The notes beneath the pieces were generated by a model. It was not told the DNA's origin and made no database searches. It saw only the letters and a list, made by a program, of their open reading frames with translations. A stretch of DNA of 36,774 nucleotides, taken from positions 1 to 36,774 of the forward strand of contig CALMKX010000078.1 of assembly GCA_937867335.1 (NCBI GenBank), read 5' to 3'. The stretch's first letter is position 1. Each line of letters opens with the position of its first letter. Source of the stretch: an uncultured Acidobacteriota bacterium (GTDB taxonomy: Bacteria; Acidobacteriota; Thermoanaerobaculia; Multivoradales; SZUA-115). Position numbers and translations under genes: made by a program. This document shows, piece after piece, positions 35,617-36,774 of this stretch.

Positions 35617-35685
35617 GGGCGCGGAAACCGCGCCCCTACCACCACCAGCCGACCCTCTTGCTGTAGGGGCGGGGTCTCCCCGCCC
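35617..35685. repeat. REP/BIME unit 1
   Basis: Two facing hairpins in 69 bp: GGGCGCGG-AAA-CCGCGCCC followed by CTAC (35617-35639), a 23-nt spacer, then GTAG before GGGCGGGG-TCT-CCCCGCCC (35663-35685). GTAG at the foot of a hairpin is typical of REP elements recognised by REP-associated tyrosine transposases. The region is free of genes. Confidence 0.8.
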
Positions 35686-35744
35686 TCTCCCGACCGAGCA
35701 CCACGCACGGACCCACGCCCTGGGCCCGGCGTCAATCCGCCACC

Positions 35745-35813
35745 CGGCGCGGAAACTGCGCCCCTACCACCACCAGCCGACTCTCTTGCTGTAGGGGCGG
35801 GGTCTCCCCGCCC
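35745..35813. repeat. REP/BIME unit 2
   Basis: Same 69-bp pair of facing hairpins as unit 1. The left stem differs at two positions (outer C, and an internal T giving a G-T pair), while the right hairpin and its GTAG are unchanged. It begins 128 bp after unit 1. Confidence 0.8.
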
Positions 35814-35866
35814 TCTCCCGACCGAAGACCACGCACGGGCCCGGGGCCCACAGTCAATCCGGACCC

Positions 35867-35935
35867 GGGCGCGGAAACCGCGCCCCTACGCCCGCTGGCC
35901 GGCCGTCTCGCTGTAGGGGCGGGGTCTCCCCGCCC
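35867..35935. repeat. REP/BIME unit 3
   Basis: Same 69-bp arrangement; both hairpins are exact, and only the spacer between them differs from units 1 and 2. It begins 122 bp after unit 2 and lies about 130 bp before the transposase. Confidence 0.8.
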
Positions 35936-36066
35936 TCTTTGGCGCCAGTCAGCCGCGACTGGCTCAACTTGCAGCCTCTTCCGGTAGCCTTCCGCCTGCA
36001 AAGGAGAGCCCTGCCACCCGAGCTCATGGTCGGCGACAGGCTCACCGAAGGAGTGGAGCGCAACCC

Positions 36067-36690
36067 TTGAAAAGAAAGCCAGATCTCCACCATCGACGTT
36101 CCCTCCGCCTGCCCGGCCACAACTACGCGGAGGCCGGAGTGTACTTCGTCACCTTGTGCACACTGCACCGGCAGTGCTACCTCGGAGAAGTGACGGGCGG
36201 AGTGTCAAGCCTTTCCGCCGCGGGGCGTCTCGCCCTGGGCGCATGGCAGGCCATCCCAGTTCGTTTCCCTCACGTCCGCTTGGACTCCTTCGTGATCATG
36301 CCCAATCACCTTCACGGGATTCTCGTGATCGGCGACGCTACAGCCGCCTGGCCCGGCACAGCCTCGGACTTGGAAAGCGCGCAGCCACCAACAACAACCT
36401 TGGGATCCGCCCTGGCAGTAGGATCCTCGCGGCACCCAACCTCGGTGCGCAGCCGGCCAACATTGGGCCAAGTAGTGGCCTATTTCAAATACCAGTCCTC
36501 GAAGCTGATCAACAATCTGCGGGTCACGCCGGGTGTGCCGGTCTGGCAACGGAACTACTTCGAGCACATCGTTCGGCACCAACAATCTCTCGAGCGGATC
36601 CGCGACTACATCGAGAACAACCCTCTGCGCTGGCACCTTGATCGGGAGAATCCAGCTATCTCCGGCCCGGAGGACCCATGGCCCATGTAA
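36067..36690 (+). CDS. REP-associated tyrosine transposase (RAYT, Y1 transposase)
   Basis: This 207-residue protein of the Y1/IS200-like superfamily cuts and joins single-stranded DNA through a tyrosine. The opening LRLPGHNYAEAGVYFVTLCT, the HUH motif in MPNHLHGIL (His81, His83), and VVAYFKYQSSKLIN with Tyr139 and Tyr142, then VWQRNYFEHIVR, are diagnostic of REP-associated members. A variable Ala/Pro/Thr-rich insert lies at about 90-130. The start is a TTG at 36067 with GGAG 8 nt upstream. It has no terminal inverted repeats of its own, but three REP units lie before it and one after it, as is usual for these non-classical, chromosomally fixed transposases. Confidence 0.93.
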   Translation: MKRKPDLHHRRSLRLPGHNYAEAGVYFVTLCTLHRQCYLGEVTGGVSSLSAAGRLALGAWQAIPVRFPHVRLDSFVIMPNHLHGILVIGDATAAWPGTASDLESAQPPTTTLGSALAVGSSRHPTSVRSRPTLGQVVAYFKYQSSKLINNLRVTPGVPVWQRNYFEHIVRHQQSLERIRDYIENNPLRWHLDRENPAISGPEDPWPM

Positions 36691-36721
36691 GCAGGTACAT
36701 GGAGCGAGCCAATTCGGGCCC

Positions 36722-36774
36722 GGGCGCGGAAACCGCGCCCCTACCACCACCAGCCGACCCTCTTGCTGTAGGGG
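36722..36774. repeat. REP/BIME unit 4, cut by the window end
   Basis: The left hairpin GGGCGCGG-AAA-CCGCGCCC plus CTAC is complete at 36722-36744; the spacer equals that of unit 1, and the second GTAG begins at 36768, after which the window stops. The transposase gene is thus flanked on both sides by the same repeat. Confidence 0.8.

Follow-up and report, generated by a model that had tools for sequence, protein, structure and literature searches.

Paired REPs (BIMEs, REPINs, and HH and TT dimers), their RAYTs and the cleavage chemistry involved have already been published. TnpA-REP proteins bind the folded single-stranded REP but not the inverse strand, and the enzymes studied make their cut at a CT or CA dinucleotide adjacent to the REP, with GTAG acting in recognition and as a guide (PMC8266576). 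TT (tail-tail) dimer is a term used for REP pairs by Di Nocera et al. (PMC3733652). In RAYT subclass 2.4, equivalent to RAYT group 4, the gene can carry an in-frame REP, a feature unique to the subclass and predominant in it, not universal (PMC6006769). How REPs multiply is still unsettled, and the identity of the replicative unit matters for that question.

Here we describe a REPtron with an array of TT heterodimers, a REP/RAYT locus of known type from a lineage that has received little study. Contig C78 (36,774 bp) makes up the entire window and comes from a genome of 5.56 Mb in 391 contigs (G000; G+C ~68%). We read 1.13 Mb of this genome (64 contigs) directly and reached the remainder by pattern searches; all 29 exact hairpins of family A, the REP family of the array pairs, fall within the contigs read directly. 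With high probability, the locus comprises a group 4 (subclass 2.4) RAYT with cognate GTAG REPs, the HH pair being most plausibly the mobile unit and the 69-bp pairs of the array mainly tandem products.

The RAYT gene and its relatives

A sequence-only reading had proposed a RAYT locus with paired REP units, and this was borne out: three pairs are followed by a RAYT open reading frame (Table 1). Judged from its sequence, the protein is a RAYT (HUH, class 2). It carries the HUH motif as NHLH at residues 80–83, WQ upstream at 160–161 and a single tyrosine in Y---NP, read as YIENNP from residue 181, while GTAG-footed REPs adjoin the gene and recur as intergenic copies. The match to NCBIfam REP_Tyr_transpos (E 2.8e-15) scores 56.5 bits, under the cut-off of 80, and that to Pfam Y1_Tnp is weak (20.6 bits, under the cut-off of 23). 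A phmmer search against the PDB gave no match to TnpA-REP entries (e.g. 4ER8) at E 0.1. Using the contig C78 protein as query, we found no second subclass-2.4 RAYT in the genome, and the gene is single-copy. Three other genes in the genome were found by Pfam Y1_Tnp, with no GTAGGGG REPs beside them.

Relatives of the protein are spread over Cyanobacteria, Bacteroidetes, Chloroflexi, Planctomycetes and other phyla, matching the published spread of subclass 2.4. Among the 72 relatives with both anchors (HUH and WQ), 47 hold an in-frame GTAG hairpin REP between them, whereas codon-shuffling those segments gives an expectation of ~0.3. These internal REPs (RAYT genes L058–L137) are often translated as VGA... 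and often form a double-foot palindrome or match the flanking REPs. As internal REPs are published for subclass 2.4 (PMC6006769), we dropped them as a new finding. In the contig C78 gene, no internal REP was detectable between HUH and WQ; the variable segment spans 74 codons, against 37–43 in the shortest relatives. The protein probably belongs to group 4 (subclass 2.4), an assignment made from motifs, relatives and this insert.

Table 1 Coordinates of the RAYT locus, dispersed family-B pairs and putative IS ends in genome G000
Feature	Contig	Position	Strand	Remarks
REP pair, unit 1	C78	35617..35685	.	69 bp, TT heterodimer with feet inside
Unit 1 GCGCGG-type hairpin	C78	35617-35639	-	23-nt spacer follows
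Unit 1 GGGG-type hairpin	C78	35663-35685	+	
REP pair, unit 2	C78	35745..35813	.	69 bp, TT; degenerate left hairpin with 2 mismatches
REP pair, unit 3	C78	35867..35935	.	69 bp, TT; diverged spacer
REP pair, unit 4	C78	36722..36774	.	53/69 bases, rest cut by contig end
Tandem array, ~125-bp repeats (period 128, 122)	C78	35615..35964	.	holds units 1-3; direct repeats, self-match
RAYT (TnpA-REP) gene	C78	36067..36687	+	TTG start, 207 aa; stop codon 36688-36690
Variable segment between HUH and WQ	C78	36319..36540	+	74 codons
Family-B 72-bp HH pair	C41	14161-14232		
Family-B 72-bp HH pair	C55	54758-54829		
Family-B 72-bp HH pair	C77	8469-8540		
Family-B 72-bp HH pair	C85	3102-3173		
Family-B 72-bp HH pair	C103	3855-3926		
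Family-B 72-bp HH pair	C161	488-559		
Family-B 72-bp HH pairs, two	C179	at 13161 and 22650		
Family-B 72-bp HH pair	C202	2146-2217		
Family-B 72-bp HH pair	C237	2709-2780		
Family-B 72-bp HH pair	C256	5044-5115		
TGTACAACCTCGGGACA end	C11	39		
TGTACAACCTCGGGACA end	C95	9868		
TGTACAACCTCGGGACA end	C177	9646		
TGTACAACCTCGGGACA end	C236	54		

Tandem array beside the RAYT gene

In each of units 1–3, two hairpins point their GTAG/CTAC feet at one another over a 23-nt spacer, confirming the facing arrangement described from the sequence alone. The left hairpin of a pair is GTAGGGGCGCGGTTTCCGCGCCC on the minus strand and the right hairpin is GTAGGGGCGGGGTCTCCCCGCCC on the plus strand. The two always differ in type, one being GCGCGG..CCGCGC and the other GGGG..CCCC. 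As single-stranded DNA, units 1, 2 and 3 fold better than shuffled sequences, with z-scores of -4.4, -3.2 and -3.2, respectively. No hairpin of the array is followed by a terminator-like T-tract, and we rejected Rho-independent terminators as a reading of the array.

The sequence-only reading had counted three constant 69-bp units before the transposase and one after it, and took the constant size as a sign that the pair is the unit being copied. The count and size stand for the three complete units, which share pairwise identities of 0.84–0.96; the fourth shows only 53 of 69 bases, all identical to unit 1. The array matches itself over 202 bp at 86%, and the likeness continues past the pairs into the inter-unit DNA with periods of 128 and 122 bp. 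Because the similarity extends beyond the pair, units 1–3 are tandem duplicates. For the same reason, constant size is uninformative about the copied unit inside the array, and we ruled it out as proof of such a unit.

REP pairs across the genome

To locate the hairpins relative to genes, a simple and crude codon-usage gene caller was applied to the 64 contigs (1.13 Mb), giving a coding fraction of 0.885. None of the 29 exact family-A hairpins and none of the 18 exact family-B hairpins fell inside called genes, compared with 88.5% of random 23-mers. All 47 exact hairpins checked are intergenic, a contrast that is large despite the crude caller.

Across the whole genome, exact matches to the feet-inside spacing number eight, three of them in the array (units 1–3). 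One of the eight, on C278, is of a third REP family. Apart from the array and C95, only C88, C217 and C55 carry the TT pair of family A. C95 carries a diverged fifth unit at the contig end, where an IS end breaks into the left hairpin, and shares ~110 bp of array flank; joining it to the end of contig C78 was ruled out, as the spacers differ at two bases. The pairs on C88 and C217 share a 1.1-kb paralogous stretch that is 72% identical. Downstream of the REP pair, both contigs (L225 and L249, respectively) hold long repeat arrays with a period of ~75 bp, 72% alike between the contigs. The C55 pair measures 66 bp and has an unrelated spacer.

With near-exact hairpins included, ~10 family-A loci have an inverted partner and ~12 do not. 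Lone hairpins thus equal pairs in frequency in this family, the outcome that the sequence-only reading had itself named as refuting its proposal. This tells against the 69-bp pair as the unit being copied, as do its tandem arrangement in the array, its rarity elsewhere and the location of two copies within the shared 1.1-kb stretch. The GGGG-type hairpin is always accompanied by a GCGCGG-type partner (9/9: seven feet-inside and two feet-outside), counting as C95's partner the hairpin that the IS end truncates. This point favours the sequence-only reading, although the nominal hypergeometric probability, 0.006, overstates it, since three of the nine are array copies.

Family B, defined by GTAGGGGCGCAGCATGCTGCGCCC, comprises 44 hairpins at up to two mismatches in the whole genome, against 0 for the reversed control. 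Eighteen HH pairs account for 36 of the 44, and 8 hairpins have no family-B partner. Eleven dispersed HH pairs span exactly 72 bp (Table 1). When aligned, these copies are 88% identical inside, while the 60-bp flanks on each side are 27–33% identical, the chance level; the three bases ahead of the first foot are GNY in 11/11. Because identity is high inside the pair and at chance in the flanks, the alignment identifies the family-B pair, bounded by GTAG and CTAC, as the copied unit, in agreement with the REPIN model. The idea of a pair as the copied unit, which is not supported for the 69-bp TT pair, thus holds in principle for the 72-bp HH pair.

A Chloroflexi RAYT gene (L123:4370–4397) has an internal REP whose stem is the same as that of family B (GTAGGGGCGCAGCATGCTGCGCCCC), which hints at what kind of enzyme may mobilise family B.

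The end sequence TGTACAACCTCGGGACA occurs at four places in the genome, each time directly beside a truncated REP hairpin. Three of these hairpins are family-B members broken at one common position in the palindrome; the other belongs to family A. This pattern suggests an IS with TGT..ACA ends for which REP palindromes are the target. We saw no transposase at the TGTACAACCTCGGGACA ends, three of which lie at contig edges, and the C177 copy looks like a remnant. Adjoining this remnant in a REP, C177 (L240:9853–13199) holds an ORF with a TIR-like N-terminus and then an ORF with many tetratricopeptide-like repeats.

We also searched 59 genomes, including the contig C78 genome itself. RAYT matches were present in 9/59 and TT pairs with GTAGGGGC feet, the one foot sequence covered by the pattern, in 7/59. 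The overlap of 2 is about that expected by chance for this foot sequence, and we dropped the idea that TT pairs accompany this RAYT among relatives. Neither of the other two genomes of the same family contained feet-inside pairs with GTAGGGGC feet. In G021, from the same order, five places (L293–L297) share a hairpin and the spacer AACAGAGCTCACGGTGGTAGCTCTAACC up to the GTAGGGGC foot; the right-hand hairpin varies between copies, and the similarity extends leftward into another hairpin. These five near-identical TT cores were set aside as support for pair copying, as their similarity stops at the differing right-hand hairpin. The repeats look like an element ending at REP feet.

Mobile unit and comparison with described systems

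We propose that a REP strand would fold during replication, allowing the HUH/Tyr nuclease to read the GTAG foot together with the hairpin and then cut at a nearby CT or CA. By analogy with the enzymes studied, cutting is expected at these dinucleotides near the hairpin rather than at GTAG. Joining of the cut strand at another site would then seed REPs into intergenic DNA. The unit mobile in this genome would most plausibly be the feet-outside (HH) pair, as the sequences of the 72-bp family B show for that family. The 69-bp feet-inside pairs would stem mainly from tandem duplication of a ~125-bp repeat, as in BIME/REPIN clusters; because they would be mainly products of such duplication, their constant size would be inherited from the tandem unit. 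Within this scheme we infer the catalysis, the cognate pairing and the cause of the duplication.

It is unlikely that the 69-bp feet-inside heterodimer was itself transposed, with the array and the copies on C55, C88, C95 and C217 all arising by pair insertion. Such transposition would account for the size of 66–69 bp at places outside contig C78 and for the GCGCGG-type partner found with every GGGG-type hairpin. It has to contend with the tandem duplication of the array copies, the 1.1 kb common to C88 and C217, and the array flank present on C95. This leaves C55 as the sole clearly independent copy, at 66 bp and with an unrelated spacer. We give slightly less credence still to the heterodimer of GCGCGG and GGGG hairpins (66–69 bp) as a mobile unit in its own right. 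If true, a group-4 RAYT would move pairs of opposite polarity to REPINs, with two different hairpins as the left and right ends.

The strictly intergenic position and the strength of the hairpins, together with the roles reported for REPs in the literature, could also reflect selection for RNA or DNA functions (transcription end points, mRNA 3'-end protection, or gyrase/IHF sites), their spread being unrelated to the RAYT. We regard this as quite improbable: the array has no T-tract terminator, the GTAG foot stays clear of the stem, as one would expect if a nuclease recognised it, and the clean 72-bp boundaries at GTAG/CTAC point to a copying mechanism. The hairpins may nevertheless have a later host role. 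That the RAYT gene and its flanking REPs move jointly as one IS200-like element is suggested by the REP units on both sides of the gene, but the single copy of that gene in the genome makes it exceedingly improbable. We favour copying of the HH pair combined with tandem duplication of the TT pairs. The genome offers a clean contrast between a 72-bp HH pair with sharp boundaries and a TT pair that is unit-like merely through its tandem array. It also extends the picture to a little-studied lineage and to RAYT group 4, a group beyond the systems examined biochemically in the cited work.

Compared with the REPtrons of subclass 2.4 (RAYT group 4; PMC6006769), the locus shares the NHxH, WQ and YIxNNP motifs, long GTAG-footed REPs with three G–C pairs at the stem base and a scatter over many phyla, with the internal REP present in close relatives. 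Unlike the typical subclass 2.4 gene, the contig C78 gene has a long variable segment without a detectable internal REP. The hydrophobic residue of the HUH motif is L in this protein and many relatives, whereas the published subclass 2.4 motif is NH[IFV]H.

The array resembles the GTAG TT heterodimers of PMC3733652 in having two inverted REPs with GTAG inside, differing stem sequences and a spacer within 20–100 bp, and in forming clusters tandemly repeated along with flanking DNA. This comparison covers layout; that paper lists 24 families in its figure. With REPINs (Bertels and Rainey 2011, PMC3116915) and BIMEs, the locus shares the inverted REP doublet in extragenic DNA and tandem clusters that take in flanking sequence. 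Unlike REPINs, the 69-bp pair has its feet inside rather than outside, and it is a candidate for a unit copied on its own. The 72-bp HH pair of family B fits the REPIN idea directly (PMC3116915).
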